DNA of 64,000 nucleotides, from the NCBI GenBank assembly GCA_009668945.1, contig SBEH01000001.1:367776-431775 (forward strand), written 5' to 3'. Source of the stretch: Actinomycetota bacterium (GTDB lineage Bacteria > Actinomycetota > Coriobacteriia > Anaerosomatales > Anaerosomataceae). Below are positions 1-16,054 of the stretch, one piece after another (position 1 is the first letter of the stretch; each line of letters starts with the position of its first letter). The notes beneath the pieces are model-generated. The model was not told the DNA's origin, made no database searches, and was given only the letters and a program-made list of their open reading frames with translations. The translations under genes and the position numbers were made by a program.

Positions 1-1605
1 GATCGCGGGCCCGTCGAAGTCGAAGGCCGCCTTGAGGGCGCGGTCAAGCTCGGACAGCTTCGTCACGCGCGCCCCGAAGGCGCCGTACGCCTCGGCGAGC
101 TTGACGAAATCCGGGCAGTCCTGCGGCAGCGTCGAGGACGAGTACCGGTGCTCGTAGAAGAGCTCCTGCCACTGCCGCACCATGCCGAGGTAGCCGTTGT
201 TGAGGATCACGACCTTCACCGGCAGCTTGTTGATGCTCGCCGTGGCCAGCTCCTGCGAGTTCATCTGGATCGAACCGTCGCCTGCGATGTCCACCACGAG
301 GTAGTCGGGCCGGCCGAGCTGCGCGCCGATCGCCGCCGGCAGGCCGAAGCCCATGGTGCCGAGGCCGCCGGAGGACGCCCACGTGCGCGGCTCGCGGATC
401 TTGAGGTACTGGCACGCCCACATCTGGTTCTGGCCCACCTCGGTGCAGTAGACTGTCGGCCGGTCCTTCGTGAGCTCGCGAACGCGCTCGACGACCTGCT
501 GCGGCAGAATGGCGCCGTCTTGCGCGTGGTAGTGGAACGGGTAGCGCGTGCGCCAGTCGTCGATCACGCGCATCCAGGCCTCGGTACGCGGCTCGGCGTT
601 CATCTTGCGCAGCTCAGCGGTAATGCCGGTGATCACGGCTTTCGCATCGCCCACTATCGGAAGATCTACGCGGCGGTTCTTGCCGATCTCCGCGGGATCG
701 ATATCGGCGTGGACGACCTTCGCTTTCGTCGCGAACGTGGCGAGCTTGCCCGTCACGCGGTCGTCGAAGCGCACGCCGATGCCGAAGAGCAGGTCGGTCT
801 CGGTGATCGCGTAGTTGGTGAACTTGCCGCCGTGCATGCCGGGCATGCCCACGAAGAGATGATGGTCCTCCGGAAACGCGCCCTTGCCCATGAGGGTCGT
901 CACCACAGGCAGCTGCATAAGCTCAGCGAGCTCCTTGAGTTCCTTCGAGGCGTTGGCGGCCAGCACGCCGCCGCCCACGTACAGCAGCGGCTTGCGCGCC
1001 TTGGAGATGAGCGTGGCGGCGTCCTTGATCTGCTTCGCGTGGCCCTTGACGGTGGGCTTGTAGCCCGGCAGGTTCACCCGCTCGGGGTACTTGTACGCCA
1101 CCTCACCGCGCGAGATGTCCACCGGCAGGTCGATGAGCACGGGCCCCGGACGGCCGGTAGAGGCGATGTGGAACGCCTCGGCCATGATCTCGGGAATCTG
1201 CTCGGAATCATCACACAGGTAGTTGTGCTTGGTGATCGGGATCGTGATGCCGGTGATGTCGGTCTCCTGGAACGCGTCCGTGCCGAGGACGTGGGTGGCC
1301 ACCTGGCCGGTGATCACCACTAGCGGCACGGAGTCCATGTACGCGTTCGCGATGCCGGTGACGGTGTTGGCCGCCCCCGGACCGCTCGTGACGATCACGA
1401 CGCCGACCTTGCCCGTCACACGCGCGTACGCGTCGGCCGCGTGCGCCGCGCCCTGCTCGTGACGCGTGAGGATGACGCGGATGCCCTCGGTGTCGTACAG
1501 CGCGTCGAACAGTGGCAGTACCACGCCGCCGGGGTAGCCGAATACGACTTCCACTCCCTCTGCCTGGAGTGATTTCACGATGGCCTGTGCGCCGGTCACT
1601 TTCAT
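1..1605 (-). CDS. ilvB: Acetolactate synthase large subunit (partial, 3' end outside window)
   Basis: This is the thiamine-diphosphate and FAD enzyme that joins two pyruvates, or pyruvate plus 2-oxobutyrate, in the first common step of branched-chain amino-acid synthesis. The window holds 535 codons with no stop, so roughly the last 20-60 residues of a normal 560-600 aa subunit lie beyond base 1. The N-terminus MKVTGAQAIVKSLQ is family-typical. The catalytic Glu lies in LTRHEQGAAH (about residue 50), and the ThDP-binding GDGS..N motif is near residue 440. The ATG at 1605 is preceded by a strong GCAGGAGG site. It lies 60 bp after ilvD on the same strand, so both are probably transcribed from the T-box leader. 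Any regulatory subunit (ilvN) would be outside the window. Confidence 0.95.
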   Translation of the reverse strand, partial: MKVTGAQAIVKSLQAEGVEVVFGYPGGVVLPLFDALYDTEGIRVILTRHEQGAAHAADAYARVTGKVGVVIVTSGPGAANTVTGIANAYMDSVPLVVITGQVATHVLGTDAFQETDITGITIPITKHNYLCDDSEQIPEIMAEAFHIASTGRPGPVLIDLPVDISRGEVAYKYPERVNLPGYKPTVKGHAKQIKDAATLISKARKPLLYVGGGVLAANASKELKELAELMQLPVVTTLMGKGAFPEDHHLFVGMPGMHGGKFTNYAITETDLLFGIGVRFDDRVTGKLATFATKAKVVHADIDPAEIGKNRRVDLPIVGDAKAVITGITAELRKMNAEPRTEAWMRVIDDWRTRYPFHYHAQDGAILPQQVVERVRELTKDRPTVYCTEVGQNQMWACQYLKIREPRTWASSGGLGTMGFGLPAAIGAQLGRPDYLVVDIAGDGSIQMNSQELATASINKLPVKVVILNNGYLGMVRQWQELFYEHRYSSSTLPQDCPDFVKLAEAYGAFGARVTKLSELDRALKAAFDFDGPAI

Positions 1606-1665
1606 GCGTTCACCTCCTGCTGGTGCCTCCGATTCCAGGGTTCGCAGAAATGCGAACCTGCGTGC

Positions 1666-3330
1666 TCACTCGAGCACTGCGCCCTTGTCGGCGCTCGTCA
1701 CGAACCGTCCGTACCGCGCGAGATAGCCGGTCTTGACCTTTGGATCGGGGGCTGTCCACTCGCGCGCGCGGACTGCGAGGAACTCGTCGGTGACCTCGAG
1801 GGTGAGCGTGCCGGCATCGATGTCGATCGAGATGGTGTCGCCCTCCTCCACGAGCGCAATCGGCCCGCCCTCGGCGGCCTCCGGGCTCACGTGCCCGATC
1901 GACGCGCCGCTCGTGGCGCCGCTGAAGCGGCCGTCGGTGATGAGCGCAACGCTCTTGGCGAGCCCCATGCCCTTCACCGACGAGGTCGGCGAGAGCATCT
2001 CGCGCATCCCCGGACCGCCCTTGGGGCCTTCGTAGCGGATGACGATCACGTCACCCTCGCGGATCTTCCCGCCGAGGATCGCCGCGCTCGCCTCCTCCTC
2101 GCTCTCGAAGACGCGCGCGGGTCCCGCGTGCCGCCGCATCTCCGGCGCCACCGCCGACTGCTTGACCACCGCACCGCGTGGCGCCAGGTTGCCCCGCATC
2201 ACGCGCAGACCGCCCACGGCGGCGTACGGGTCGTCGATAGAGCGGATGACCACACCGTCAGCGCCAGCGAGGTGCTTGATGGTGTCGCCTATCGTGCCGC
2301 CCGTGACCGTGAGCGCGTGCGTGTCAATGAGTCCACCCTTGGCGAGCTCGGCCATGATCGCCGGGATGCCGCCGGCGAAGTACAGGTCCTCGATGTGGTA
2401 GTCGCTCGCCGGCGAGACGCGAACGAGGTTCGGCGTCTTCGCCGAGACTGCCTGCCAGTCGTCGAGCGTGATCGGATGACCCGCCTCGGAAGCGATGGCG
2501 GTGAGATGCAGCACGGTGTTGCTCGACCCGCCGAAGGCCATGTCGAGCGTCATCGCGTTCCTGATGGCGGCGGGCGTCATGATCTTTCGCGCGGTGATGC
2601 CGTGCTTGAGCAGCTCCATCACCGCCATGCCGGCGTGCTTCGCCAGCCGGATGCGCTCCGAATAGACGGCTGGCACCGTGCCGTTGCCCGGCAGACCCAT
2701 GCCGATGGCCTCCGTGAGGCAGTTCATCGAGTTCGCGGTGAACATGCCGGCGCAGCTACCGGACGTGGGGCACGCATCGTTCTCCAGCGCGAGCAGGCTC
2801 TCGTCGGAGACCTCGCCTTTGGCATGCGCGCCTATGGCGGTGAAGACGGTGTCGAGGTCGACGTGCTTGTTCTCCCAGCGGCCGGCGAGCATGGGCCCCG
2901 CCGAGACAACGACCGTCGGCAGGTCCATGCGTGCGGCTGCCATGAGCATGCCCGGGATGACCTTGTCGCAGTTCGGGATGAGCACGACGGCGTCGAACGC
3001 GTGGGCGCTCACGGCGATCTCCACCGAGTCCGCGATGACCTCGCGGCTGGCGAGCGAGTAGCGCATGCCCTCGTGGCCCATCGCGATGCCGTCGCACACG
3101 CCGATCGTGGAGATCTCAAGCGGGGTGCCGCCGGCGATGCGCACGCCGGTCTTCACGGCATCTGCGATGCGGTCCATGCCGACGTGGCCGGGGATGATGT
3201 CGTTCGCCGAGTTGATCACGGCTACAAGCGGGCGCGCGATCTCCTCGTCGGTGAGGCCGTCGGCCTTCAGGAGGCTGCGGTGGGGCGCACGGAGGGCGCC
3301 CTTCTTCATGCGATCGCTGCGATGCTCCAT
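1666..3330 (-). CDS. ilvD: Dihydroxy-acid dehydratase
   Basis: IlvD dehydrates 2,3-dihydroxy-isovalerate and 2,3-dihydroxy-3-methylvalerate to the 2-oxo acids that precede valine, leucine and isoleucine. The protein has 554 aa, normal for the IlvD/Edd family. Its three cluster-binding cysteines lie in GVCDG (about 79), PNCDK (121) and TSGSCAGMF (193), so it should carry an Fe-S cluster. The N-terminus [20 protein letters not shown] matches the family. I chose the ATG at 3330, which follows GGGGAG with 5-6 nt spacing. A GTG two codons upstream (3336) is possible and makes little difference. ilvB follows 60 bp downstream. Expression is probably set by the T-box leader immediately upstream. Confidence 0.96.
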
Positions 3331-3360
3331 GCGCACTCCCCTGCCTCATTCGGGCGGGGC

Positions 3361-3636
3361 CCCGCGTGCCGCATAGAGCGAGGAGGCGCAAGCGGGCCTG
3401 CTTGGGTCCGTGCGCGTGTCTTCATGACTCATGCGGCAGGTAACGGATGCCACCGACCCGTCTTACTGGTCCGGCGCCCTGGCGGAGGTCGTCCGCCCTG
3501 GTGACGCCGGCACGTTCTTCCGGGTGGCTCGGGGGTGAGTTTCGAAGCGTCCCGCGCCGGGTTTCCACCGTCCCCGACTCTCTGCAGCTGGGATTGGCCC
3601 CTACTGTTCCCCGTCAACGCCGATAGAGCTGTGTCA
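3361..3636 (-). promoter_or_regulatory. T-box riboswitch leader of ilvD-ilvB (probable leucine specifier)
   Basis: On the minus strand the leader has the landmarks of a T-box. The 5' arm of the specifier loop contains ACAGTAG (3601-3608). The distal Stem I signature AGAGAGTCGGGGACGG begins at 3583. The 3' arm reads GAAACTCACCCCC (3543-3531), with basal CGGGG/CCCCG pairing. A Stem III-like hairpin follows, then the T-box-like GGTCGGTGGCATCCG (about 3440-3457). Read as GAAA-CUC-A, the specifier is Leu CUC (3539-3537). Further downstream TGCCGCAT pairs perfectly with ATGCGGCA (3438 to 3368), forming a hairpin next to the ilvD ribosome site. That fits control of either termination or translation. 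The bulge reads TGGC rather than the TGGT expected for an A73 tRNA, so the amino-acid assignment is tentative. Confidence 0.8.
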
Positions 3637-3650
3637 TTGACAGGGCATGA

Positions 3651-3656
3651 AGTATA
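3651..3656 (-). promoter_or_regulatory. -10 element of the ilvD T-box transcript
   Basis: TATACT reads on the minus strand about 15 nt before the first base of Stem I, which places the start of transcription near 3644. There is no good -35 hexamer at 17-18 bp; the best is a weak TTTGCG. Confidence 0.5.
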
Positions 3657-3778
3657 GGCGAGCGGCGGCGATGCCGCAAACGCCGACCTGCGCCGAGGCA
3701 CTGCGGCGTTGCGCGACGGCTGCCTTCGGGCATCAACTCGCCAGAAGGTGTCCCATGCGGCGAAAGGCCACGTGACAC

Positions 3779-4921
3779 GTGGAAGTCGGATTCGCATACA
3801 CCCCAAGCCTCGATGCCTACGACCTCGGCCCGGAGCATCCGTTCAGGCCCGAGCGCGTGACGCTCGCGGTGAAGCTGATGGAAGCGTACGGCCTCATCGC
3901 AGAGGGCGCGCTCCGGCCGATCGAGTTCCAGCCGGCCACACGGGAGCAGCTCGAGCGCGTCCACGATGGCGCCTACATCGACACGGTGATTCGCGCATCG
4001 GGCCCGGGCGGGCTGTGGCCTCCGGAACGGGGGATCGGTCCCGGCGACACACCCGCGTTCCCGGGCATGCACGACGCCGCAGCGCTCGTGGCGGGCGCGA
4101 CGTCGGCGTCGCTCCGAACGGTACTAGACGGCCGCTACACCCGGGCCTTCTCTCCCGCCGGCGGTCTCCATCACGCGCATCGCGACCGCGCGGCGGGCTT
4201 CTGCGTGTACAACGACCTCGCGGTGGCAATCGCCGACGCGCTCGCCCGCGACCCCGACCTACGCGTACTCTACGTCGACATCGACGCCCACCACGGTGAC
4301 GGAGTGCAGGAGGCCTTCTACACCGGCCCGCGCGTGCTCACGATATCCCTCCACGAAAGCGGACAGTACCTCTATCCGGGGACAGGCTTCATCGAGGAGC
4401 GCGGGAGCGGCGCGGGGAGGGGAACTGCGATCAACGTGCCGATGCCGCCGCTGGCAACTGACGAGTGCTATCTGCTGGCATTCGACGAAGTGGTCGCACC
4501 CGCAGCGCGAGCGTTCAAACCCGGGGTCATCGTGGCGCAATGCGGCACCGACGCCCACTGGAGCGATCCGCTCACATCGCTCGGCGTCACGCTCGCCGGG
4601 TTCAGCGCGCTGTACGCCCGCATCGTGGCGCTTGCTGATCAGTTGTGTGCGGGACGCCTGCTCGCCTGCGGCGGAGGCGGCTACGCCTGGACCAGGGTGG
4701 TGCCGCGGGCCTGGACGATGTTGGCCGCGATTCTCGTAGAACGAGAACTGCCCGAAGACCTCCCGGCGGCCTGGCTCGCGGCACTCGGCCGGTACACGGA
4801 CGCACCCCCAGCATCTCTCACCGGCGATCCGGCGCCCTCTGTGCCCGCAGGCGCAGCCCATCGGCAGCTCGCAACCACAGAGGCGGTCATCGCCAAGCTC
4901 CGCGACCTCGGGGCGGTCTGA
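3779..4921 (+). CDS. acuC: AcuC-type histone-deacetylase-superfamily protein
   Basis: This 380 aa, single-domain member of the arginase/deacetylase fold is a Zn-dependent amidohydrolase of the acetoin-utilisation AcuC type. Homologues remove acyl groups from lysines, classically on acetyl-CoA synthetase. Visible active-site segments are GGLHHAHRDRAAGFC (about 125-140, His dyad), DIDAHHGDG (167-175, metal ligands) and the late GGGGY. The start is GTG at 3779, with GAAAGG 11 nt upstream; no better start is in frame. It stands alone between the divergent ilv leader and the convergent cytochrome gene. No acetoin or acetyl-CoA-synthetase gene is in view, so its target here is unknown. Confidence 0.88.
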   Translation: MEVGFAYTPSLDAYDLGPEHPFRPERVTLAVKLMEAYGLIAEGALRPIEFQPATREQLERVHDGAYIDTVIRASGPGGLWPPERGIGPGDTPAFPGMHDAAALVAGATSASLRTVLDGRYTRAFSPAGGLHHAHRDRAAGFCVYNDLAVAIADALARDPDLRVLYVDIDAHHGDGVQEAFYTGPRVLTISLHESGQYLYPGTGFIEERGSGAGRGTAINVPMPPLATDECYLLAFDEVVAPAARAFKPGVIVAQCGTDAHWSDPLTSLGVTLAGFSALYARIVALADQLCAGRLLACGGGGYAWTRVVPRAWTMLAAILVERELPEDLPAAWLAALGRYTDAPPASLTGDPAPSVPAGAAHRQLATTEAVIAKLRDLGAV

Positions 4922-5021
4922 CCCTCTCGGCGCGACTGCCAAAGGGACGCGCCCCCGCCGGCGTCCGACGGAGGCGCCCTACCCCTCCCGCTCAAGCGAC
5001 CCTGAGAGCCGCCTGCCTCGC

Positions 5022-8000
5022 CTAGTAGCCCCAGGCCTCCAGCTCCCAGATCCGGTAGTTGCTGCTGTTGGCGGTAGTGCAGTACACGCGCACGTAGCGC
5101 GCACTCACGGAGTTGAGCGTCACCGTCTTGATGCCGACGGAGCCGTTGGTCGTGCCGTATTGCATCGTCCAGTTGGTGCCGTCGGTCGACGTTTGCACCT
5201 CGTACGACTTTGCGTAGTAGGTGCTCGGCCAATTGACGACGATGCTCGTGAGCGTCTTGACGGCGCCCAAATCCACGCGCAGCCACTGCATGCCGGTGCT
5301 CAACGAGCGCCAGTCCGTAGTCGTGCTGCCGTCGATCGCCTTCGCTGCAGAGTATGTCGAGCTGTACTGGCTCGATGCCGAAGCGCTACCCGTGCGCGCG
5401 ATGTTCGTCGGTGTCGGATTCGCAGTGAGTGTCACATTCTGCGTCTCCGTGGCGCCAGCGGTGATCGCCACCGGGCCGGACCACGGGGTGTAGCCGGTGG
5501 CACTCACCGTCATCGTGTACGTCCCGGCGGTGATGTCAGCGATCGAGTACGCGCCGGTGCTGCTCGTCGTGGCGGTCTTGCCCGCGATGCTCACCGTCGC
5601 CCCGGCGAGTGCGCCTCCAGTCGACTTGGTGACCGTGCCAGCCGCCGTCCCCGCTGTGGGCGCCGTCGCGTTCGCCGGCCAGCTCGAGCCGGAAAGCGGG
5701 TGCTTGTCGGATGCGCAAGCCGCGCCGCAGTCCGACTTGCCCCAACCGTTCGGCGTGTAGCTCTTGAGCGATATCCGCTGCACTCCACCGGTGTACGCGG
5801 AGTACGGTGCCGGGTCGGTCGTGTACGCGAGCAGGCGCGGGCGCGTCCATCCGTGCGGCACCGCCGTGTGGCAGTAGTGGCAGTAGCCACCCTCCCCGCC
5901 CCGGTCATCGTGCTCCTTGTGGACGATGTTGCTCCACGAGCCGCTCGCCGACAGGTCGTGACACTTCTCGCAGATGATGCCCGCGGCAGAGCTTCCGCCC
6001 TTGGACATGCTCATGCCCGTCGAAGAACTCGCCGAGAGCTGCGCGGTGCCGCCGGTGCCGCCAGCGCGGAAGGACTTCGGGTACGCCGGATCGATGTTGA
6101 CCTTCATCGTCGCACCATGCGGCCCGGTGGCGCCGCTGTACGAGTGGCAGTCGGTGCAGCCCGTCATCGAGCTTGTCGTCCAGCCCGACTTGAGGAAGCT
6201 GCTCGCGCTCGGCAGTGTCCATGTGTACGTGGTCCCATTCGCTGAGAACACCGACCGCATTCCGGGCAGATCCGCTCTTGTACGGTGAAGTGACAGGCGC
6301 GCCGGGTTGAACTCGTAGGCGAGTGCCGCATGGGCCGCTGGATGGCATGTCGCGCAGCGCCTGTCGTGCGCGGTGATCGAACCCCGAACGGCGGCCGACG
6401 TCGAGTCGTGGCAGGTCGCGCAGTTGTAGCCGAGTGCCTCGTGCTCGTCGTCGAGGTACATGAAGTGACACGCGGCGCACTCGGAGCCGTTCGCGGCCGC
6501 CGCGTTGTGCGATTCATGGTGGTTGGTGCCCACGTTGGGGTGACAGGCCGCGTCCGCACAGTTGGTGGTGCGTGCGGGCGTGGCCGCATTGACGTGGCAG
6601 GCTGCGCAGCCAGGTCCGGTCGGCTTGCCGTGGATCGCCTCGACGTTGGTGATGTCGTGGCAGCCGGAACCGCTGCATCCCGTGGTAGTCGACACGTGCT
6701 TGCTCGCCTGCGCGCCGTGCTTGGTGGCGTGGCAAGCAGCGCACGTCTTGTTCCACGCAGCGGTGAAGTTGTCGACCTTCGCTTCATGGCAAGAAACGCA
6801 CGTCACGACTGGCGAGACGGAGGTCTTGGAGTGCTCGGCCTTCATGTCCTTGTAGTGACACTGATCGCAGGCCGTCTCCGCCGAGGCGTTGTGCGCAGAC
6901 GCCGGGTAGTGGTTCGGATCGATCTGTGTGTAGCCGCCGTGGCAGTAGGTGCATTCGATCGACGGGTTCGTCCAGTTGATCCGACCCGCCGGCGCGCTGT
7001 GGCACACCGGACACGAGCCATTCACCGTCGTAGCGTGTATCTGTCGCACGTCCCCTGTCTCGTGGCAGTCCACGCAGGTCCGGCTCGCCGTTGCAGTGTG
7101 AATCGTTGCGATGTCGCCGTGAACTGTGTGGCAGCTAGAGCAGTCAGCCGTTGCGGTGGCTGGAATGCGACCTGGCGTCACGTTCTTGTGGCAAAGGTCG
7201 CAGGTGGACGAGTACCCCCACTTCGCAATGGTGCGCTGGTGCTCCTCGGGAAGGGTGTTCGCAACGTGGCACGGCGTGCCCGTGGTGCAGGATGGATCCA
7301 TCGCCGAGTAGGTGTGCTTGGATGTCATCAGCTCGTGATAGTCCACACCCTCGGCGGCGTGGCAGCTCGCGCACTCGGCAGTATGTCCGCTGATGACCTC
7401 TATTCGCGAGCTCGCATGACAGACCTTGCACGGACCGGCCGCCGCAGTCGCATGCACTGCGGTCACGTCGATCGCGGTCTGCCCGGTCGCGTGACAGACG
7501 CCGCACTCGAGACTGGCAGCCGTCGCCGCTGTGTGCGCCGACGCGTTCGTATGGTACGCCGCGTGGCATGCCGAGCAGCGCGTGTCGTTCGCAGTCGAGA
7601 TTGCCGACTGAGCGGTGTCACCCGTCACGGCGCCGCTCGTCTGGCCCGTGTACAGAGCGTGGCACACGTCACAACCGGTGAGACCCGCAGTGCTGGTGTA
7701 GCCGCCATTGTGCTCGGCAGCGATGTTCGCGCTGTGGCAGTCGGCGCATGCAAGCAGTGGGCTGTCGACGAACGCCGACGTATGCGCCACCGGAATCGGA
7801 GCGTGGACCGAGTGGCAGCCCTCGCAGGCACTCAGCCGCGCGGCGATCACGTTCCGGACCTGCGAGCCCACCGGCTGATCGTGACAGGTTCCGCATGTGA
7901 GCGCGGCGCCTGCCGCGTCCCGCCGCGGGAAGACGACCCACGCGCCGGACAGCTGCAGTCCGACATGCTCGTCAACGAGGTTGGCGGTATGGCAGCCCGC

Positions 8001-9428
8001 ACAGTCGCCCGTCGGCGCTGTGCCCGCGGAACCCGTCACGTACGAATAGTTCGGCGAGCCGTCGGCGTTCGCGAGCGGCGGAACGGCATTGTGAGCGTCA
8101 CGGTGTCCGCCAAGCGCGCTGATCGAGCCGTGGCAGTCACCGCAGCCGGTCAGGTGGTTCACGATGGCGTACTGCACTTCGGCGCGAACGCTGGAGTGGC
8201 AGCCGCTGCAGCCGAAGGCGGCGTTGCGCTGCGCGTGCACCGCGGGCAGATCCGGCGTGGCGTGGCAGCCAGTACCGCCACAGGTCACCGAGACCGACTG
8301 ATGCCTCGCCGAGTCGTAGTGAGCCTCGAAGGTGAAGTGGCAGACGGTGCAGTCGCTCGAGGCCGGCTTGCCCGCCAACGTATGACAGACGCGGCAGGAG
8401 GTTGCGCCGGGCACGGTCTTGCTCTTGGCTGCTACGTGGATGGAGCCGAGATCCGTGCCAGGGTGACACTGAAGACAACGCTGGTTCGCGTTGGAGACCT
8501 CATGCTTCACCGGTGCGTCTGCATGCATCGGCTTCGTCGAGCCTGCTGTGTGGCAGCCACCGGTGGCGCAGGTCTGGTCCCAGGCGGCGAACGACTTGCG
8601 AGGCATCGGGTGGCATTTGACGCAGCTTGTGCCGGTCGCACCGGGATCTGCGTGCGCCGTGGCCAGATCGAGCGAATGGCACGACGAGCATGCGATCGTG
8701 TCCAGCGCGCCGTCATCGGCAACATGATCGACGGTGTCATACCAGTGGTACGTGACCCTCAGCGGATGACAGGAACCGCACGACGGCACGAAGTCAGCCG
8801 TCGCCGCCTTCGCGGGATCGTGACATGAAGAGTTGACGCAGGTGGAGGGCGCGGTGACCGCGGAAGTGCCGGTGGCCTGGAGGTACGTCACTGGCGGGTA
8901 CTGTGACACAGCGTGGTTGGTGTGCTGCACGTCGCCGTGGCATGCCGAGCAGGCAACCGGCTTGTGACATGGCTGGCACTTGGAGGAGTTGGCCCAGGTC
9001 AGCGAGTTGACCCATCCCGCACCAGAGTGCTGTGCGTGAAGCGTCTGCGGAGAAGCAGTAAGCGACTCCGGCCAACCGAATCTGCCGTACTGTGTCAGCG
9101 TGTAGCCCTGGAAGAACCTGCTGCTGTCCGGCATGGTGGGAGCGTACACTCCGTGGCAGTTCGAGCAACGGCTGTAGAGGTTGTGCCAGTGCTGGGGCGT
9201 GGTTTCGTTGTGTTCGATCGCCCCGTGGCAGGTCTTGCAGCGGTTGTAGTCGACCGGCGCCACGGCGAAGTCGACCTTCCCCACCGCACCAGTACCGGCG
9301 ACCCCATGACAGGTGTAGCAGTCGCCTGGCGTGGTGTACGTCGGCGCAGTCTGCGCAGCCGCCACACCCCCGACCGCGAACACCAGAACGAGTGTGAGCG
9401 CTACCAGAACCAGGACGCGAACACGCAT
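5022..9428 (-). CDS. Giant secreted multiheme c-type cytochrome with discoidin (F5/8C) C-terminus
   Basis: The protein has 1,468 aa. It has a signal peptide (about 1-26, LVLVALTLVLVFAVGG then AAAQT) and then some 43 covalent haem sites from C37 to about residue 1185. I count 37 CxxCH, five CX4CH (such as CVNSSCH, CATGGCH, CGGTGCH) and one CX5CH (CTTGTPCH), plus many free His for axial ligation. The tail holds a carboxypeptidase-regulatory-like beta-sandwich (about 1263-1333) and an F5/8-type C (discoidin) carbohydrate-binding domain (about 1340-1468). There is no transmembrane anchor, so it is probably exported and held to the cell surface or matrix by the discoidin domain. Long-range extracellular electron transfer is the likely role. 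The ATG at 9428 was chosen because it opens the signal peptide. The ORF stays open 42 codons further, but without signal-peptide or domain sense. Confidence 0.92.
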   Translation of the reverse strand: MRVRVLVLVALTLVLVFAVGGVAAAQTAPTYTTPGDCYTCHGVAGTGAVGKVDFAVAPVDYNRCKTCHGAIEHNETTPQHWHNLYSRCSNCHGVYAPTMPDSSRFFQGYTLTQYGRFGWPESLTASPQTLHAQHSGAGWVNSLTWANSSKCQPCHKPVACSACHGDVQHTNHAVSQYPPVTYLQATGTSAVTAPSTCVNSSCHDPAKAATADFVPSCGSCHPLRVTYHWYDTVDHVADDGALDTIACSSCHSLDLATAHADPGATGTSCVKCHPMPRKSFAAWDQTCATGGCHTAGSTKPMHADAPVKHEVSNANQRCLQCHPGTDLGSIHVAAKSKTVPGATSCRVCHTLAGKPASSDCTVCHFTFEAHYDSARHQSVSVTCGGTGCHATPDLPAVHAQRNAAFGCSGCHSSVRAEVQYAIVNHLTGCGDCHGSISALGGHRDAHNAVPPLANADGSPNYSYVTGSAGTAPTGDCAGCHTANLVDEHVGLQLSGAWVVFPRRDAAGAALTCGTCHDQPVGSQVRNVIAARLSACEGCHSVHAPIPVAHTSAFVDSPLLACADCHSANIAAEHNGGYTSTAGLTGCDVCHALYTGQTSGAVTGDTAQSAISTANDTRCSACHAAYHTNASAHTAATAASLECGVCHATGQTAIDVTAVHATAAAGPCKVCHASSRIEVISGHTAECASCHAAEGVDYHELMTSKHTYSAMDPSCTTGTPCHVANTLPEEHQRTIAKWGYSSTCDLCHKNVTPGRIPATATADCSSCHTVHGDIATIHTATASRTCVDCHETGDVRQIHATTVNGSCPVCHSAPAGRINWTNPSIECTYCHGGYTQIDPNHYPASAHNASAETACDQCHYKDMKAEHSKTSVSPVVTCVSCHEAKVDNFTAAWNKTCAACHATKHGAQASKHVSTTTGCSGSGCHDITNVEAIHGKPTGPGCAACHVNAATPARTTNCADAACHPNVGTNHHESHNAAAANGSECAACHFMYLDDEHEALGYNCATCHDSTSAAVRGSITAHDRRCATCHPAAHAALAYEFNPARLSLHRTRADLPGMRSVFSANGTTYTWTLPSASSFLKSGWTTSSMTGCTDCHSYSGATGPHGATMKVNIDPAYPKSFRAGGTGGTAQLSASSSTGMSMSKGGSSAAGIICEKCHDLSASGSWSNIVHKEHDDRGGEGGYCHYCHTAVPHGWTRPRLLAYTTDPAPYSAYTGGVQRISLKSYTPNGWGKSDCGAACASDKHPLSGSSWPANATAPTAGTAAGTVTKSTGGALAGATVSIAGKTATTSSTGAYSIADITAGTYTMTVSATGYTPWSGPVAITAGATETQNVTLTANPTPTNIARTGSASASSQYSSTYSAAKAIDGSTTTDWRSLSTGMQWLRVDLGAVKTLTSIVVNWPSTYYAKSYEVQTSTDGTNWTMQYGTTNGSVGIKTVTLNSVSARYVRVYCTTANSSNYRIWELEAWGY

Positions 9429-9642
9429 ACGGATCGCCACCTCTTCTTCGGCACTTGCATGTCGAAAGAGCCCCCACAGGCGGTCCGGCCGCTTCCCGCT
9501 GTCCCCTGGCGAGAAATGAAGAACCGGCCGAACTCGATCAGCCGGTTGCGCCACTGGCTCCCCGTCACCCAGGCGCCCAAATGCAGGTGACGGTTCTATG
9601 CCGAAGATCTGACTACGGGCACTTCCAATCCACCCACAGTCA
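9429..9642 (-). promoter_or_regulatory. Long structured 5' leader of the multiheme cytochrome (unassigned)
   Basis: From the inferred transcription start (about 9642) to the ATG is about 214 nt. It holds a perfect 8-bp hairpin, CCGTCACC/GGTGACGG around a 16-nt loop (about 9565-9596). A second hairpin is AACCGGC/GCCGGTT with a 12-nt loop (9522-9547), enclosed by TGGCG...CGCCA. A G-rich stretch then leads to the ribosome site GAAGAAGAGG. The architecture is riboswitch-like. I could not match it to a cyclic-di-GMP (GEMM), SAM, TPP or cobalamin consensus, so function is left open. Confidence 0.5.
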
Positions 9643-9648
9643 TTCGGG

Positions 9649-9678
9649 ATTATCGAGGGACATCCTGCCTCAGGTCAA
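9649..9678 (-). promoter_or_regulatory. Sigma-70-type promoter of the multiheme cytochrome
   Basis: TTGACC (9678-9673) and GATAAT (9654-9649) each match consensus at 5 of 6 positions and are separated by 18 bp. The predicted start is near 9642. This is the best-looking promoter in the window. Confidence 0.72.
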
Positions 9679-9684
9679 CGGATT

Positions 9685-9702
9685 TTGTGACGAATCTCAC
9701 AA
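9685..9702. promoter_or_regulatory. CRP/FNR-like palindrome upstream of the cytochrome promoter
   Basis: TTGTGA-N6-TCACAA is a perfect 18-bp inverted repeat. It is essentially the core recognised by cAMP-receptor-protein-type regulators and close to FNR half-sites. Its centre (9693.5) is about 51 bp before the predicted start and just upstream of the -35, a position typical of activator binding. Confidence 0.6.
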
Positions 9703-9759
9703 TCATCCGAAAGTATGACCTCGCATCGCCCGTGAGGGGGCGGACCGGGGCGCGGGCCT

Positions 9760-10923
9760 CTACCGCGCGGCGCCGTCGACCAGGAATCTTCGGGAATCCC
9801 CGGTCGACTGCGCCCGCATGAGCGCGGTCGGATCGCCCTGAAGTGCGTTACCTTCGATGAACAGCACGCCGTCGCCATCGGCGGTCCAGCGCAGCGGATA
9901 GCACTCGCGCCGCACGCATAGCGATGCCGGCGCACCGCCCGCCGTCGGCACCGCGAACATCCGTGAGTACCCGTCGTCACCGCGCTCGGCGTAGACGAGA
10001 TGGGTCGCGTCCGGAGACAGAAGCATGTCCCCCAGCGTGACCGCGCGCTCCGAATCCGGTGCGCCCACGAGCGTGCGCTCGCCCTGCCCGGTCGCGCCTA
10101 TCGCCCGCAGCGACGCCGCACCGTCGGCGGCCATCGCGCCGAAGAAGATCGTGGCGCCGTCAGCTGCAATCCCGGTCACGGTACGGCTCGCGCGCAGGCG
10201 GGTGAGCGCGCCGGCGCGCCAGACCGAGATCTCACCTGTCGGCGCCAGTCCCACAACCGTCCCGTCGGCCACAGAGACGCTAGGCATCTCGCCGGCGAAG
10301 AGCTCGGCTGCGCCACTGCCGTCGCGGGCGACGCGCAGCACGCTAGGTCCCGGTGCCGTGTACGCGAGCCACGCCGAATCCGGCGCCCACGACGGCGGGT
10401 CCTGCAGCGCCGGCCCGATCGCGACCACGACGCCGGATGCTGTGTCCGCCAGCGCGAGCGCACCGGTGCCCGCGTCAACGAACGCGATCAGCGTGCCGTC
10501 GGGCGAGAGCGTCTGCACGCCCGCAGCCGAGGCCGCCACCCGCCGCTCCCCACTGCCGTCCTCGGCAGCCACGCACAGCCAGCCGTCCCGCCGGTACGAG
10601 ACCAGCGCGGCGCGCACGAACTCGCTCTGCGCGGGAGCCGCAGTTCCGGTATCGGCGACAGGCTCCTGCTCGTTGGCGGCCGTATCCGCTCCCGGTCGCA
10701 CCGGCAGCGTGGTCTCGCTCGTCTCCTCGGCGGGGACTATGGTGCGGCTCGTCTCGCCCCCGGGCGCCTGCGCGGGCCCGCGCGCGGCCGACGCCGCAAG
10801 CGCACCCGCGACCGCGACCAGCGCGAACGCGGCGGCTCCGGCGACGTACGCCCACCGCCGCCTGCGCGAGAGCGACCGCCAGTACGAGCCGCGCATCGCC
10901 TCGAAGTCGGGCCGCTCCGTCAC
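9760..10923 (-). CDS. Membrane-anchored TolB-like beta-propeller protein
   Basis: The protein has 387 aa. A short basic cytoplasmic segment is followed by one transmembrane helix (about 25-47), an acidic Thr/Glu/Pro-rich linker to about residue 100, and then repeated blades. The blades carry the LSPDGTLIAFV / WAPDSAWLAYT / LSPDATHLVYA signature of PD40/WD40-like (TolB-type) propellers. It is therefore probably an extracytoplasmic sensor or scaffold tethered to the membrane. The start is GTG at 10923 behind a G-rich GGGGGG. The gene begins 27 bp after the isocitrate/isopropylmalate dehydrogenase stop and is likely co-transcribed with it. No enzymatic motif is visible. It has no obvious link to the dehydrogenase reaction. 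Confidence 0.7.
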   Translation of the reverse strand: MTERPDFEAMRGSYWRSLSRRRRWAYVAGAAAFALVAVAGALAASAARGPAQAPGGETSRTIVPAEETSETTLPVRPGADTAANEQEPVADTGTAAPAQSEFVRAALVSYRRDGWLCVAAEDGSGERRVAASAAGVQTLSPDGTLIAFVDAGTGALALADTASGVVVAIGPALQDPPSWAPDSAWLAYTAPGPSVLRVARDGSGAAELFAGEMPSVSVADGTVVGLAPTGEISVWRAGALTRLRASRTVTGIAADGATIFFGAMAADGAASLRAIGATGQGERTLVGAPDSERAVTLGDMLLSPDATHLVYAERGDDGYSRMFAVPTAGGAPASLCVRRECYPLRWTADGDGVLFIEGNALQGDPTALMRAQSTGDSRRFLVDGAAR

Positions 10924-10950
10924 CGTCGGCGCCCCCCGGGTCGTGTGCCG

Positions 10951-12042
10951 CTACAGGCGCTCGATCAGCGCGTCGGCGTACGCCTGCGTGCCCACGGCAC
11001 CGTCGGTGGTGCCGAATCGCGAGCGCTTGATGTCGTACGTCACGCGCTCGCCCTCGCCGATGACCGCGCGCACTGCGGCGAGAATCCGTCCGGCGGCATC
11101 GGTCTCACCGAGGTGCTTGAGCATCAGCATCGCCGAGAGGATCTCGGCAGTCGGGTTGGCCATGTCCTTGCCCGCGTACTTCGGCGCGCTGCCGTGCACC
11201 GGCTCGAAGACCGCGCACTCGGCGCCGATGTTCGCGCCCGGCGCGATGCCCAGGCCCCCGATGAGGCCGGCCGAGAGGTCGGAGAGGATGTCGCCGTAGA
11301 GGTTCGGCAGCACGAGCACGTCCCACCACTCGGGATGGAGCACGAGCTGCATGCATGTTGCGTCGACGATGTAGTCCTCGAACGCGACGCCCGAGCCCGC
11401 GTACTCCTCGGCCACCTCGCGCGCGACTTTGAGGAACAGGCCGTCGCTGTGCTTCAGGATGTTGGCCTTGTGGACCGCGGTGACCTTCTTCCGGCCGTTG
11501 GCGATCGCGTAGTCGAACGCGTACTTCACGATGCGCCGAGTGCCGGTGATGCTGATCGGCTTCAGCGAGATGCCGGAATCCGGCCGGATCGTGCCGACGC
11601 CTTCCGCGGCCGCGAACTCGATGAGCCTGCGAGCACCGTCGCTCCCTTCGGGGAACTCGATGCCGGCGTAGAGGTCCTCCGTATTCTCGCGCACGAGCAC
11701 GATGTCGATGTCGTCGTAGCGCGCGCCGCTGCCGGCGATCGAGAACGCCGGGCGCAGGCAGGCGTAGAGGTCGAGTTCCTTGCGGATGGCCACGTTCACG
11801 CTGCGGAAGCCGGTGCCCACGGGCGTGGTGATCGGGCCCTTGATCGCGACCTTGTTCTTGCGGATCGAGTCAAGCACATGCTGCGGAAGCGGCGTGCCGT
11901 ACTTGTCCATCACGTCCGCGCCGGCTTCCGCGATCTCCCACTCGATGTCGACGCCGGCGGCTTCCACCACGCGGCGCATCGCGGTCGTGAGCTCCGGACC
12001 GATGCCGTCGCCGGGGATGAGGGTCACGGTGTGCTTGGCCAT
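10951..12042 (-). CDS. NAD-type isocitrate/isopropylmalate dehydrogenase family protein
   Basis: This 363 aa beta-decarboxylating dehydrogenase converts a 3-substituted malate to a 2-oxo acid, reducing NAD(P) and releasing CO2. It has the family opening LIPGDGIGPEL, the substrate segment GFRSVNVAIRKELDLYACLRP, the conserved Tyr in RENTEDLYAGIE (about 138) and the metal-site GDILSDLSAGLIGG. The S-x-N-x3-R pattern plus RENTEDLYAG resembles NAD-dependent isocitrate dehydrogenases more than canonical LeuB. Homoisocitrate or isopropylmalate use cannot be excluded from sequence. It is the only such enzyme in the window and could serve the leuA/leuC/leuD-like genes 4-7 kb away. The ATG at 12042 follows GGAGG with 10 nt spacing. 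Confidence 0.85.
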   Translation of the reverse strand: MAKHTVTLIPGDGIGPELTTAMRRVVEAAGVDIEWEIAEAGADVMDKYGTPLPQHVLDSIRKNKVAIKGPITTPVGTGFRSVNVAIRKELDLYACLRPAFSIAGSGARYDDIDIVLVRENTEDLYAGIEFPEGSDGARRLIEFAAAEGVGTIRPDSGISLKPISITGTRRIVKYAFDYAIANGRKKVTAVHKANILKHSDGLFLKVAREVAEEYAGSGVAFEDYIVDATCMQLVLHPEWWDVLVLPNLYGDILSDLSAGLIGGLGIAPGANIGAECAVFEPVHGSAPKYAGKDMANPTAEILSAMLMLKHLGETDAAGRILAAVRAVIGEGERVTYDIKRSRFGTTDGAVGTQAYADALIERL

Positions 12043-12103
12043 GCTCGGACTACCTCCGAAGGTTCGTCGTCGTGTCCTGCGATTGTACGCGAGCCTGCAC
12101 AGT

Positions 12104-12131
12104 TTGGCTTCTGGTTACACATTGGTATACT
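12104..12131 (+). promoter_or_regulatory. Promoter of the antitoxin-doc operon
   Basis: TTGGCT (12104-12109) and TATACT (12126-12131) are 16 bp apart. The start would be near 12138, leaving about 40 nt of leader before the antitoxin ATG. The intergenic segment is AT-richer than its surroundings. A minus-strand TACAAT facing the dehydrogenase lies in the same gap. Confidence 0.55.
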
Positions 12132-12176
12132 CACGGTAAGTACATTCCTCTACGCTGCCGCGTGGAGGTGATGCCG

Positions 12177-12425
12177 ATGGGATGTGCAACGACTATGCGC
12201 AAGAAGCTCGTGAAGCACGGGAACAGCAGGGCGCTCATCATCGACAAGGCGATTCTGGAGCTGCTGCATGCCGACGATGACACGACGTTCGAGATCGAGA
12301 TGCACGCCCAGGGTGTGCTCTTGACTCCGGTGACGAACGCGACCGAGCGTGCCAGCAGGTTCGAGACCGCAGTCCGCGAGTCGTTGGAGAAGTACGGCGA
12401 CGTGTATCGCAGACTGGCCGAGTAG
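12177..12425 (+). CDS. AbrB/MazE-type antitoxin
   Basis: The protein has 82 aa. An N-terminal swapped-hairpin DNA-binding segment (MRKKLVKHGNSRALIIDKAI, about residues 7-26) is followed by DTTFEIEMHAQGVLLTPV, the AbrB/SpoVT/MazE pattern. A C-terminal helix (FETAVRESLEKYGDVYRRLAE) probably caps the toxin. It should bind its own promoter and neutralise the downstream Doc toxin. The ATG at 12177 has GGAGG 8 nt upstream; 12171 is too close to that site and 12195 would need no ribosome site. Its stop and the toxin GTG are separated by 2 bp. Confidence 0.85.
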   Translation: MGCATTMRKKLVKHGNSRALIIDKAILELLHADDDTTFEIEMHAQGVLLTPVTNATERASRFETAVRESLEKYGDVYRRLAE

Positions 12426-12427
12426 CC

Positions 12428-12823
12428 GTGGATCCGCTGTTTCTCACCTACGACGAGGTGATTCGAATCCACGTCATCCAAGTCGAGTTGTACGGTGGCT
12501 CGCATGGTGTGCGCGACCAGGGGCTCCTCGATTCGGCGCTCGCCATGCCGAAGGCCGGTTTCGGTGATGACTACCTGCACGTGGACATCTTCGAGATGGC
12601 GGCGGCGTACCTGTATCACATCGCCCTGAACCACCCGTTCGTCGACGGGAACAAGCGCACGGCCACCCACGCCACCGATGTCTTCCTGCGCCTGAACGGG
12701 CACTCGCTGGAGTTCGCTGACGATGCGCTGTACGACCTCGTCATCGGCGTGTGCGAGGGCACGGTCACCAAGAAGCAGCTGGCGGCAGCTTTCCGGGAGA
12801 ACTCCGCGCCGTTCGGGGACTAG
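12428..12823 (+). CDS. doc: Doc (death-on-curing) family toxin
   Basis: This 131 aa Fic-fold protein has the motif HPFVDGNKRT (69-78). As in phage P1 Doc, Lys replaces the second Gly of the Fic HxFx(D/E)GNGR loop. Doc proteins with this variation phosphorylate elongation factor Tu rather than adding AMP, and so stop translation. The GTG start at 12428 lies 2 bp after the antitoxin stop, so the two are translationally coupled. The AbrB-type antitoxin replaces the Phd antitoxin of the classical system. The pair occupies about 700 bp between two minus-strand gene groups, a common place for insertion of such modules. Confidence 0.9.
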   Translation: MDPLFLTYDEVIRIHVIQVELYGGSHGVRDQGLLDSALAMPKAGFGDDYLHVDIFEMAAAYLYHIALNHPFVDGNKRTATHATDVFLRLNGHSLEFADDALYDLVIGVCEGTVTKKQLAAAFRENSAPFGD

Positions 12824-12834
12824 CGAGCGGTCTG

Positions 12835-13290
12835 CTACAGCCAGCCCAGCCTCTGTAGCGTCACGATGTGGTAGCCCACGAGCCCCGCGAACAGCGCAAG
12901 CGCGACAAGCGCCAGCGCCAGGACCGACCGGCGTCGACGCCCGTGCCAGATCACGACACTCACGACGAGCATGGCGCCGACCTTCGTCCACACAGCGATC
13001 CACGGACTCTCAGCGCTTGCCGCGGCCAGTACCGGGTTGGACTCCCGCGCGATTCCCAGACCGAGCTCGGCGGCCGTGAACCACCCGTCAACGAGCGAGA
13101 GCACGTTCAGCAGCACGATGACGGCCGCAACCGTCCACGGATGGTCGCGCATTCCGCCCAGCAAGGGATAGCGCTTCCTTCGATCGAAGCCGTGCCGGCG
13201 CTCAAAGAAGCGGTACCGTCGCCTCGTCCGTTGTTGGGCCGTGCGGCGGTCGGCGCCGTCCCAGACGGTCCGCGGACTGGCGTCACTCAC
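12835..13290 (-). CDS. DUF5658-like small membrane protein
   Basis: The protein has 151 aa. A basic N-terminal 45 residues (TRRRYRFFERRHGFDRRKR) is followed by three or four transmembrane segments: about 53-72 (AAVIVLLNVLSLVDGWFTAAEL), about 97-112, and 119-142 (VLALALVALALFAGLVGY). The order and the DGWFTAAELGLG..ESNP segment resemble the DUF5658 family, whose function is unknown. Its GTG (13290) overlaps the TGA of the upstream GGDEF-EAL gene by 4 bp. The two are therefore translationally coupled, which suggests a linked role, but no partner function can be read from sequence. Confidence 0.65.
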   Translation of the reverse strand: MSDASPRTVWDGADRRTAQQRTRRRYRFFERRHGFDRRKRYPLLGGMRDHPWTVAAVIVLLNVLSLVDGWFTAAELGLGIARESNPVLAAASAESPWIAVWTKVGAMLVVSVVIWHGRRRRSVLALALVALALFAGLVGYHIVTLQRLGWL

Positions 13291-15959
13291 GCGGGCAGTC
13301 CGCCACCCAGTGTCGCCGTGTCCGCAAGGACGGCCCGGAACTCATCGGCAGGCATGTCCTTGGCGAACAGGAATCCCTGCGCGCTCGGACATGCCGCCTC
13401 CACTAGCACGCGTCTCTGGGCCTCGGTCTCGACTCCCTCGGCGATGACCTCTAGGTGCAGCGCCTTGCCGAGCGAGACGATCGCGCCAGCGATCGCTTTG
13501 CTCCCCTCGTCCTCGCACACGTCGCTCACGAACGTTCGGTCGACCTTCAGAACGTCGACCGGCAGCTGCTTGAGGTAGTCGAACGTGGAGTAGCCCGTTC
13601 CGAAGTCGTCGATCGCGATGCGCACACCCATGTCGCGAAGATCGCGGAATGCGCCGATGAGACGCGGCGCGTCTCGCATCGCCACCGATTCCGTCAGTTC
13701 GAGCGAGAGCTGCTTTGGGTCCAGCCCCGACTCGCCGAGCGCGGCGGCGACCTGCGTCACCAGATCGCAATCAGCTGCCTGCCGGGGCGAGAGGTTGACG
13801 GAGACCACCAGATCGTCGTGCCCCTGCTCGGCCCACTGCCGGGCCTCGCGACACGCCTGACGCAGCACCCAAGTTCCCAGCTCGGAGATGATCCCGGTCT
13901 CTTCGGCAAGCGGTATGAAGGTAAGCGGAGGAATAGGGCCGTGCACGGGATGACGCCACCGGCACAGAGCCTCCGCGCCCAACACGTGTCCGTCCGCGAG
14001 GCGCACGATCGGCTGATAGTGAAGCGCGATCTCGTCGCGCTCGATCGCATGCATCAGGTCGTTCTTCAGCGCAAACCGCTGCAGGGCAGCTTCGTTCATC
14101 GACGGCTCGAACTGCCGGTACGAGTTGCGTCCTTGCTCCTTGGCGACGTACATCGCCAGGTCCGCGTTCCGAAGCAGCATATCGGAGGGCGTGTCGTCTC
14201 CGTAGTGGAGCGAAATGCCTAGGCTCGCGGTCATCGAGATCTCGCCGGCGCTGGTCATGAACGGTTCGCGGAAGGTGTCGAGCACCTTCTCTGCGAGTAT
14301 CCCTGCGTCCTCCTCCGAGCGCACTTCCGGAAGCACCAGGACGAACTCATCGCCGGCGAGGCGCGCGAGGGTGTCATCCGCGCGGATGACGTCGTGCAGC
14401 CGCTCGGCGACGGCGAGCAGCAGCAGATCGCCGGTTCCGTGTCCTGCGGTGTCATTCACGCTCTTGAAGTGGTCGATATCCAGGACGATCAGGCCCAGGG
14501 GCTCACCAGAGCGCTTGGCGTGCGCGACCGCGACCTCGATGCGGTCCTGCAACAGCGCGCGGTTCGCAAGCCCCGTGAGCGGGTCGTGAAGCTCCATGTG
14601 TTCGATGGCCTCCTGCGCCAGGCGACGCTCGGAGATGTTGCGCACTACGCTGAGCAGCGCCTTGCGGCCGTGGTACGCGATAGCCGACGTCCTGACCTCG
14701 ACCGGGATCTGCTCGCCCGTGTCCGACTCCGCTATCGTCTCGATCACGCCACCGCCGGAATGCAGTGAGCCAAGAAGATGACGCCGGTACCCTTCGCGTT
14801 CCTCGGCTGTGACCCACCAGAGCTCGGGCGTCGAGAAGAACTGCTCGCGCGGCCGCCCGACGAGCACGCACATCGCTTCGTTGACGTAGAGCACGCAGAG
14901 ATCGTCGGCGTCTCGCACGATGATCCCGTCGCCGGCGTTGTCGAGAAGGAACGACTTGAACTCGAGCTCCTCCTCGGTCGCGAGGCTCTCGGTCTGCTCC
15001 CGCATGATGACCTGGATCCCCGGCTTCCCCTCGAAGACAAGCGGGGTGGCGATCGCCTCGGCGTAGAACGCACTCCCGTCCAGGCGCACGAAGCGTTCGA
15101 GCATCCTGGGCGCCTTCACCTTCTGTTCGGACATCATCTTGATGCGGCCCGCGACTGTGGGAAGGCTGTCGGGGTGCACGAAACTCATGACGGGCCTGCC
15201 GAGTACGTCTTCCGGCGAGGCCGCTCCGACCATTCGCGCGGCCGCCCGGTTCACGAACACGAGACCGCCGCCCGAGTGCACGAAGATGGCGTCGGGGGAG
15301 TCGTCTACGAGCACCCTGTACTGCTGCAGACGCTCCTCAGCCGCACGCCTGTTCTCCTCCGCATCGTGAAGACCGCTCAGGATCCGCTCGACGAGCAGCG
15401 GCGCTCCCTCCGCGGAGGTCATCTCATCCGGCGAGACGAACATCGCGTTCTCGCATGGGATGTCCGCCATGAGCAGCCAGGGGGTGCAGAGGATCGCGTC
15501 CGCAACCGCGTCGGCGTCGAAACAGCTGGCATCATACAGAAGCACCGCGACCACCCCGGCTTCGGGCAGTTGCCCGTCCATCGCGGATTGAATGGACAGT
15601 ACGCGCGGAGATTGCGCGAGCGAGCCGAAAGCGCTCACGGCCTCGATGAGTAGGATGGGGACGGTGGCGTCCAGTCCGGTGCCGCAAGCGGTGATGGCGG
15701 CAGCTACGTCATCCGGTCCGTCCCAGGGACGTTCGATCGCCGAACAGCGGCAGTCCGGGGCAGCCTTAGTGACCTCGGCGATGAACGCAGCGTCCCCGAG
15801 CGCTCCCACCGAGCGTCCCGCGGTCACGGCCTCCGCGGCAAGCGCCGCAGCGACCTCGTGGACTTCGGCGGTCGAGCGCAGCACCGCACACGCCCGTGCC
15901 GGCGCGGTGAGGCGCGACACAGACTCGCGAAGAGCCTCGGGCGTCCATCCGCTCGTCAC
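13287..15959 (-). CDS. Sensor diguanylate cyclase/phosphodiesterase (MEDS-like - PAS - PAS - GGDEF - EAL)
   Basis: The protein has 890 aa and no transmembrane helix. In order it has an N-terminal MEDS-like sensory region (about 10-180), two PAS domains (about 215-335 and 345-470), a GGDEF domain (about 480-640) with motif LAGDEF (about 536), and an EAL domain (640-885). The EAL domain carries GAEALCRW, DDFGTGYS and VIAEGVET. The AGDEF variant is often still active, and the EAL residues look intact, so it could make and/or break cyclic-di-GMP. I chose the GTG at 15959, which has GGAAGGA 6 nt upstream. Extending to the TTG at 16037 would run through the likely -10 (TATACT, near 16026). The coupled membrane protein follows. 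Confidence 0.9.
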   Translation of the reverse strand: MTSGWTPEALRESVSRLTAPARACAVLRSTAEVHEVAAALAAEAVTAGRSVGALGDAAFIAEVTKAAPDCRCSAIERPWDGPDDVAAAITACGTGLDATVPILLIEAVSAFGSLAQSPRVLSIQSAMDGQLPEAGVVAVLLYDASCFDADAVADAILCTPWLLMADIPCENAMFVSPDEMTSAEGAPLLVERILSGLHDAEENRRAAEERLQQYRVLVDDSPDAIFVHSGGGLVFVNRAAARMVGAASPEDVLGRPVMSFVHPDSLPTVAGRIKMMSEQKVKAPRMLERFVRLDGSAFYAEAIATPLVFEGKPGIQVIMREQTESLATEEELEFKSFLLDNAGDGIIVRDADDLCVLYVNEAMCVLVGRPREQFFSTPELWWVTAEEREGYRRHLLGSLHSGGGVIETIAESDTGEQIPVEVRTSAIAYHGRKALLSVVRNISERRLAQEAIEHMELHDPLTGLANRALLQDRIEVAVAHAKRSGEPLGLIVLDIDHFKSVNDTAGHGTGDLLLLAVAERLHDVIRADDTLARLAGDEFVLVLPEVRSEEDAGILAEKVLDTFREPFMTSAGEISMTASLGISLHYGDDTPSDMLLRNADLAMYVAKEQGRNSYRQFEPSMNEAALQRFALKNDLMHAIERDEIALHYQPIVRLADGHVLGAEALCRWRHPVHGPIPPLTFIPLAEETGIISELGTWVLRQACREARQWAEQGHDDLVVSVNLSPRQAADCDLVTQVAAALGESGLDPKQLSLELTESVAMRDAPRLIGAFRDLRDMGVRIAIDDFGTGYSTFDYLKQLPVDVLKVDRTFVSDVCEDEGSKAIAGAIVSLGKALHLEVIAEGVETEAQRRVLVEAACPSAQGFLFAKDMPADEFRAVLADTATLGGGLPA

Positions 15960-16054
15960 TGCCGGTCCTTCCGCATGCGGACATGCGCGAGCGCCGGGCC
16001 CCTTCCGGAACGCGCACAAGGAGTATACCCGACGCAAGACCCGTTCGCGCGACT

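Follow-up and report, generated by a model that had tools for sequence, protein, structure and literature searches.

A predicted 43-haem secreted cytochrome encoded behind a putative c-di-GMP-II riboswitch in an Anaerosomatales bacterium

The cytochrome gene and its product

The window analysed here is a stretch of 64,000 nucleotides from a bacterium of the order Anaerosomatales. One gene on its minus strand encodes an exceptionally haem-rich protein, the parts of which are as follows.

5022..9428, minus strand: gene of the 43-haem secreted cytochrome, uninterrupted, 1,468 aa, about 150 kDa without haem (motif count and Pfam)
9351..9428, minus strand: signal peptide, about residues 1-26 (hydropathy and an AxA-like cleavage site; homologous in orthologs)
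5868..9320, minus strand: haem region, residues 37-1187, with 43 motifs, about 27 residues per haem and weak internal repeats of ~130-145 residues
7266..7289, minus strand: CX5CH site CTTGTPCH, residues 714-721
5424..5642, minus strand: CarboxypepD_reg domain, residues 1263-1335 (Pfam, 1e-14; model pLDDT above 90)
5055..5384, minus strand: F5/8C domain (CBM32-type discoidin), residues 1349-1458 (Pfam F5_F8_type_C, 7.5e-25; model)

Counted on the translation, the haem motifs are 37 CX2CH, five CX4CH and one CX5CH, 43 in total, precisely the numbers given by the sequence-only reading, which had also described an exported protein of this length without stating its strand; the plus strand of 5022-9428 was checked for coding and none was found. 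The motifs hold 86 of the 89 cysteines, and there are 95 histidines in total. Its only hydrophobic stretch (residues 1-29) is the signal peptide, and a scan for anchors found neither an LPXTG/sortase motif nor a C-terminal anchor, which agrees with the earlier statement that the protein lacks a membrane anchor. With an export signal, multiple CXnCH motifs and CcsA/ResB homologs encoded in the same genome (C32), it belongs to the c-type multihaem cytochromes. The site at residues 714-721 is, judged from the alignment, a one-residue insertion peculiar to this protein, since CX4CH stands there in 17/17 orthologs compared, and haem attachment would be least certain at this site among the 43.

Pfam Cytochrome_C7 repeats match the protein (E 3e-25), and the internal repeats of the haem region are weak, with offsets mostly of 130-157 residues. 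PDB profile matches of this region include the 12-haem cytochrome 3ov0 and chain 6r2q_A, the latter presumably MtrA of the MtrCAB complex, although the molecule name printed for it is another. The match to 3ov0, a c7-polymer of the GSU1996 type, lies at profile positions 768-990 (E 2e-9) and likens the haem region to a chain of c7-like haems. GSU1996-type cytochromes carry 12 haems in triheme units; the window protein differs in having 43 haems and a repeat of about 130-145 residues. A phmmer comparison with the filament cytochromes OmcS, OmcE and OmcZ gave no sequence match. AlphaFold2 modelling of residues 28-1227 with 14 sequences reached a pLDDT of 33, and the model was discarded with no haem geometry read from it; structure prediction, which had been recommended as a check, served for the confidently modelled tail and failed for the haem part, where a continuous chain of closely spaced haems is putative.

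The C-terminal tail

Both C-terminal modules named in the sequence-only reading, a carboxypeptidase-regulatory-like module and an F5/8C domain, were placed by Pfam. The first is a probable rigid spacer, and between it and the haem region Cys 1234 and Cys 1238, invariant in orthologs, may form a disulphide. The F5/8C tail shows 41% identity to the chitosan-binding module of a Paenibacillus chitosanase, and its model (pLDDT above 90) superposes on 4zy9 with a TM-score of 0.87, which identifies a discoidin fold like that of the CBM32 modules of the strain IK-5 chitosanase (4zxe, 4zz5). The sugar contacts of those modules are Glu14, Arg31, Glu/Tyr36 and Glu61; unlike them, the window tail has Tyr1355, Asp1372, Ser1377 and Pro1401 at the matching positions, so that 4/4 are replaced. 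Chitosan bound in the known way was therefore rejected as the ligand. The earlier suggestion that the tail attaches the protein to polysaccharide keeps the CBM32-type fold in its favour and loses the chitosan-contact residues; a glycan ligand is plausible on the model. Nearly all large members of the family keep the tail, and tethering is not essential to the family, because one ortholog (G030) lacks it.

Conservation and distribution of the family

The cytochrome was matched in 54 of 61 kin genomes, in many of them at full length. An ortholog aligns with it from end to end at 60% identity, and nearly every ortholog with the region keeps the Cys, Cys and His of the haem sites, which disposes of the worry that the reading frame is a chance or frameshift artefact. 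Across 18 aligned orthologs, the same three residues are retained at practically every aligned haem site where the region is present. The 52 histidines outside the motifs divide into 43 that are conserved and nine that are not, and the conserved ones provide one candidate sixth ligand per haem; because these candidates equal the haems in number, mostly bis-His, low-spin haems are predicted.

This count bears on the improbable alternative that the protein is a terminal reductase whose catalytic five-coordinate haems act on a specific soluble or mineral acceptor, in the manner of OcwA of Thermincola potens and OmhA of Carboxydothermus ferrireducens. Both are multihaem cytochromes, secreted or at the surface, of Gram-positive bacteria that transfer electrons (PMC6703420, PMC7829351), and the conserved His-His pair 970-971 of the window protein recalls the distal His-His motifs of OcwA. 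Ligand counts can also mislead, in that OcwA has histidines enough for nine bis-His haems and yet two of its haems are five-coordinate (PMC6703420). Against the alternative, there are as many conserved candidate distal histidines as haems, 43 of each, so that no site is obviously left open, and OcwA is absent among the best 60 PDB profile matches. OcwA has nine haems, some of them open-site, in an NrfA-like core and OmhA has about 11 haems, whereas the window protein has 43, a ligand candidate for each and a glycan-binding-type tail; its haem number and its full set of ligand candidates place it outside the OcwA/OmhA terminal reductases.

Intact and partial large members of the family carry 37, 43-44, 50, 52, 58 and at least 60 haem motifs, and the variation in size stems from insertions at few places (after residues 206, 702, 776 and 947). 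The family also has mini-members, about 370-490 aa long and carrying 12-16 haems, which resemble both ends of the haem region. In three genomes (G001 C7/C11, G002 C19/C11 and G056 C24/C51) the assembly breaks inside the cytochrome gene, so that the ortholog begins at one contig edge and the riboswitch lies at the edge of another contig; the breaks are probably owed to the repeats of the gene, and the haem counts from these genomes (60 in G001) are probably too low. In-frame stops in matches to paralogs were considered as possible recoding, which was rejected because they are the true ends of genes sharing the last module (L002 checked).

Matches at E<=1e-20 occur only in Anaerosomatales among 199 sampled genomes of the class, and named records place the family in Anaerosomatales/Coriobacteriia. 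The last haem module (about residues 1036-1250) has a wider distribution and occurs in multihaem proteins of Proteobacteria, Nitrospirae and Chloroflexi. Its proteobacterial relatives at L092, L093 and L096 are 11-haem proteins adjoining 24-haem proteins, with the look of a PCC3-like cluster.

A c-di-GMP-II riboswitch aptamer in the leader

The 5′ leader of the gene contains three further features.

9531..9614, minus strand: c-di-GMP-II riboswitch aptamer (RF01786), scoring 61.9 bits (gathering score 53.5; E 2e-11 for the window as a whole)
9522..9547, minus strand: terminator-like hairpin AACCGGCTGA-TCGAGT-TCGGCCGGTT then CTTCATTTCT, -17.3 kcal/mol, z -3.6 when folded alone
9649..9678, minus strand: sigma-70-type promoter-like site TTGACC-18-GATAAT, 10/12 (consensus scan)

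The aptamer is the sole Rfam match in the window, covers the full model (1-84) and ends about 100 nt ahead of the cytochrome start codon. Besides the score, conserved helices with compensatory changes assign it to RF01786: 14 of 22 pairs are changed on both sides in the alignment, and the covariation score was reached in 0/500 shuffles, which ignore relatedness; slid controls were also far lower. The P1 stem of the window aptamer has four non-standard pairs and its end is poorly paired. The promoter-like site upstream is the only such match in 4700-11100, weak evidence when taken alone. Since the 5′ arm of the terminator-like hairpin is the conserved 3′ end of the aptamer, the two structures should be mutually exclusive, and from this exclusion it is inferred that the leader is an ON switch allowing transcription when c-di-GMP is bound. 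Such an overlapping hairpin with a T-rich tail is found in 18 of 30 leaders (0.05 expected by shuffling), and about 12 of the 30 are without an overlapping terminator.

In its own genome the window aptamer is the only RF01786 match above the gathering score. Above-cutoff matches occur in 31/61 kin genomes and in 0/14 control genomes. Thirty such loci were fetched. At three of them the contig stops too early for the next gene to be judged; at 25 of the remaining 27 the next gene is a member of the cytochrome family, and one of the two exceptions precedes an RCC1-like secreted protein. Nearly every family member whose 5′ end is intact has retained the riboswitch; no aptamer was found in the leaders of the G032 and G045 orthologs. 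No paper found in the open literature searched links a c-di-GMP-II riboswitch to a cytochrome, and the papers joining riboswitches to electron transfer concerned Geobacter or were reviews.

A gene for a PAS-PAS-GGDEF-EAL protein lies on the same strand 3.9 kb upstream of the cytochrome (13287-16037, minus), so the cell encodes enzymes of c-di-GMP turnover; this gene was not found beside the orthologs in relatives. The genome also contains one c-di-GMP-I riboswitch (63 bits) at C21:207293-207385, minus strand (L175), the neighbours of which encode a secreted protein, an LPFTG-type surface protein and a sortase-like protein.

Control of the c-di-GMP type and a CBM32-type tail together raise the tentative alternative of a matrix or cell-cell cytochrome, induced in biofilms and bound to exopolysaccharide by its tail, that serves direct interspecies transfer rather than mineral reduction. 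A large member of the family is present in EMTCatB1, a bacterium of electromethanogenic biocathodes that lives with a methanogen and highly expresses multihaem cytochromes, the identities of the genes not being resolved in that study (PMC7943316). The replacement of all four chitosan-contact positions tells against this alternative, in which exopolysaccharide binding and location are putative.

Gene neighbourhood and candidate partners

The orthologs occur in two kinds of surroundings. Some relatives have it in a cluster that also encodes a 15-haem cytochrome, 12-haem NapC-like cytochromes, NHL propellers, CcsA/ResB and a 6-haem protein; in the other set, which includes the window, it lies between leuB and the ilvD/ilvB genes. 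The arrangement beside leuB, ilvD and ilvB is seen in 10 genomes of several families (window 1-12042, L033-L037 and L041-L044), and the tree calls for at least two changes between the two contexts. The idea that the cytochrome works together with branched-chain amino acid synthesis was weighed and dropped, given the cytochrome-cluster context in the other relatives, and the leuB/ilv position is treated as location only. T-box leaders stand 3′ of cytochrome or mini-cytochrome genes at L027 (3353-3615), L006 (1165-1380), L007 (6174-6389) and L028-L030, the one at L027 alone being above the Rfam cutoff; they probably belong to the neighbouring amino acid operons. Between leuB and the cytochrome, the window has a gene for a membrane-anchored protein without a Pfam match (9760-10923, minus), and of the loci compared, G019 alone showed a similar gene. 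At 12072-12823 (plus) are two small genes whose products look like an antitoxin and a toxin of the Fic/Doc type, the second protein having the motif HPFVDGNKR.

No haem protein or quinol oxidase was found near the cytochrome gene in the window. To that extent the sequence-only reading, which reported no porin or quinol-oxidising partner nearby, was right; candidate partners are nonetheless encoded elsewhere in the genome. At C3 (L060) are an NHL propeller, a 7-haem and a 15-haem protein that are 68%, 57% and 60% identical to the cluster members of relatives, and at C11:352-358 kb (L059), outside the window and about 15 kb from the cytochrome, are genes for two 12-haem proteins, one 6-haem protein, and NHL and TPR proteins. 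The NapC/NirT-type domain is the usual quinol-oxidising module, and it is found above the Pfam cutoff in two cytochromes of this genome, one of 12 haems (C21) and one of 24 haems (C20). A protein of 2,651 aa that combines 33 haem motifs with an fn3-like region is encoded near the ResB/CcsA genes (L053 600-8555; C32). The lack of a porin or quinol-oxidising partner near the gene had led to the proposal of a single-gene conduit, which would need no partner at all; because the genome does encode partner proteins and NapC/NirT-type cytochromes, and relatives have such genes in one cluster with the ortholog, we regard that proposal as very improbable.

A cytochrome that is secreted without an anchor, and whose haem number varies freely by block insertion at few positions, suits a role in capacity no less than one in length. 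The 43 haems might accordingly act as an electron store, working like a capacitor in the wall or matrix to even out intermittent contact with an acceptor, with long-distance conduction secondary. Both the strict conservation of the haem sites and the clustering with quinol-oxidising-type and relay cytochromes in relatives fit a through-path better, and we consider the electron store unlikely.

Proposed role and comparison with known systems

We propose, with a probability of about 0.6, that this exported c-type cytochrome with all or nearly all haems bis-His coordinated is a long extra-membrane electron conductor of a Gram-positive bacterium and is switched on by c-di-GMP. At low c-di-GMP, the leader RNA would fold the terminator hairpin and transcription would stop; at high c-di-GMP, in the surface-attached state, the aptamer would hold the 5′ arm of the hairpin and the gene would be transcribed. 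The signal peptide would direct export of the protein, and the CcsA/ResB proteins encoded in the genome would supply it with haem. Electrons from the quinone pool may then pass through a NapC-type 12-haem cytochrome and the 15-haem and smaller cytochromes, a route suggested by their genes and clustering, into the 43-haem chain, and on to an acceptor, whether an Fe(III) mineral, an electrode or a partner cell; the flow may also run in reverse, as electron uptake. The CBM32-type domain would hold the protein to a putative glycan of the wall, matrix or surface. Haem loading, c-di-GMP binding and electron transfer by the 43-haem cytochrome are in each case what we infer.

Giant cytochromes, secreted electron-transfer cytochromes of Gram-positive bacteria and cyclic-dinucleotide riboswitches on Geobacter cytochromes are already known, and the haem number alone is no record. 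The protein is very haem-rich and from a Gram-positive-type lineage, as the sequence-only reading remarked, but that reading overstated the rarity: the PCC3 extracellular cytochromes have a median of 34 haems and up to 85 haem motifs in one protein (PMC5566968). The window protein resembles these giants in its very many haems and internal repeats, and differs in that a porin and an inner-membrane protein, in diderm cells, are part of the definition of PCC3 systems. No adjacent porin and no five-helix inner-membrane protein of the PCC3 type could be recognised, either in the window or in those clusters of relatives that were examined, and the absence of a porin at the locus is expected because the lineage is monoderm. 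In Geobacter, cGAMP-sensing GEMM-Ib riboswitches control the electron-transfer cytochromes PgcA, OmcS/T and OmcAHG (PMC6456294). Common to the two systems are a multihaem electron-transfer cytochrome gene, a cyclic-dinucleotide riboswitch and a terminator-based ON switch, the last deduced here from the overlap; the c-di-GMP-II aptamer, in contrast, is structurally unrelated, the phylum and envelope are different, and the cytochrome family is unrelated. The Anaerosomatales c-di-GMP-II system would thus be parallel to, and separate from, the Geobacter cGAMP system. The combination of an unrelated aptamer class, an order-specific Gram-positive family, up to at least 60 haem motifs and a CBM32-type tail was not found in the open literature searched.

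Cultured Anaerosomatales have Gram-positive walls, and one of them is an obligate Fe(III) reducer (PMC9686372). The link to extracellular electron transfer drawn by the sequence-only reading is probable. The two cultured members of the order have 17-18 multihaem genes each, yet only Parvivirga reduces Fe(III), a difference for which the authors offered no firm explanation (PMC9686372). In our set, G016 has a 37-haem member with a riboswitch and G012 only a 16-haem mini-member; if G016 is Parvivirga and G012 is Anaerosoma, possession of a large member or a mini-member may explain the difference.

The route of electrons through a thick Gram-positive wall is still an open question, and the cases characterised so far involve cytochromes of about 9-12 haems; here, one conserved cytochrome family could have haems enough to reach far beyond the wall, together with a built-in control element whose ligand is predictable. 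The near one-to-one link between the c-di-GMP-II riboswitch and the family, within an order that includes an iron-reducing isolate and a bacterium from a biocathode, points to electron transfer regulated by a surface-attachment signal. We would lean neither for nor against the wider proposal that a Gram-positive subsurface lineage, independently of Geobacter, tied extracellular electron transfer to surface attachment through a c-di-GMP-II riboswitch reserved almost wholly for one giant secreted cytochrome family, which grows by haem-block insertion to span wall and matrix. If true, how and when monoderms conduct electrons through their walls would become testable on one gene.
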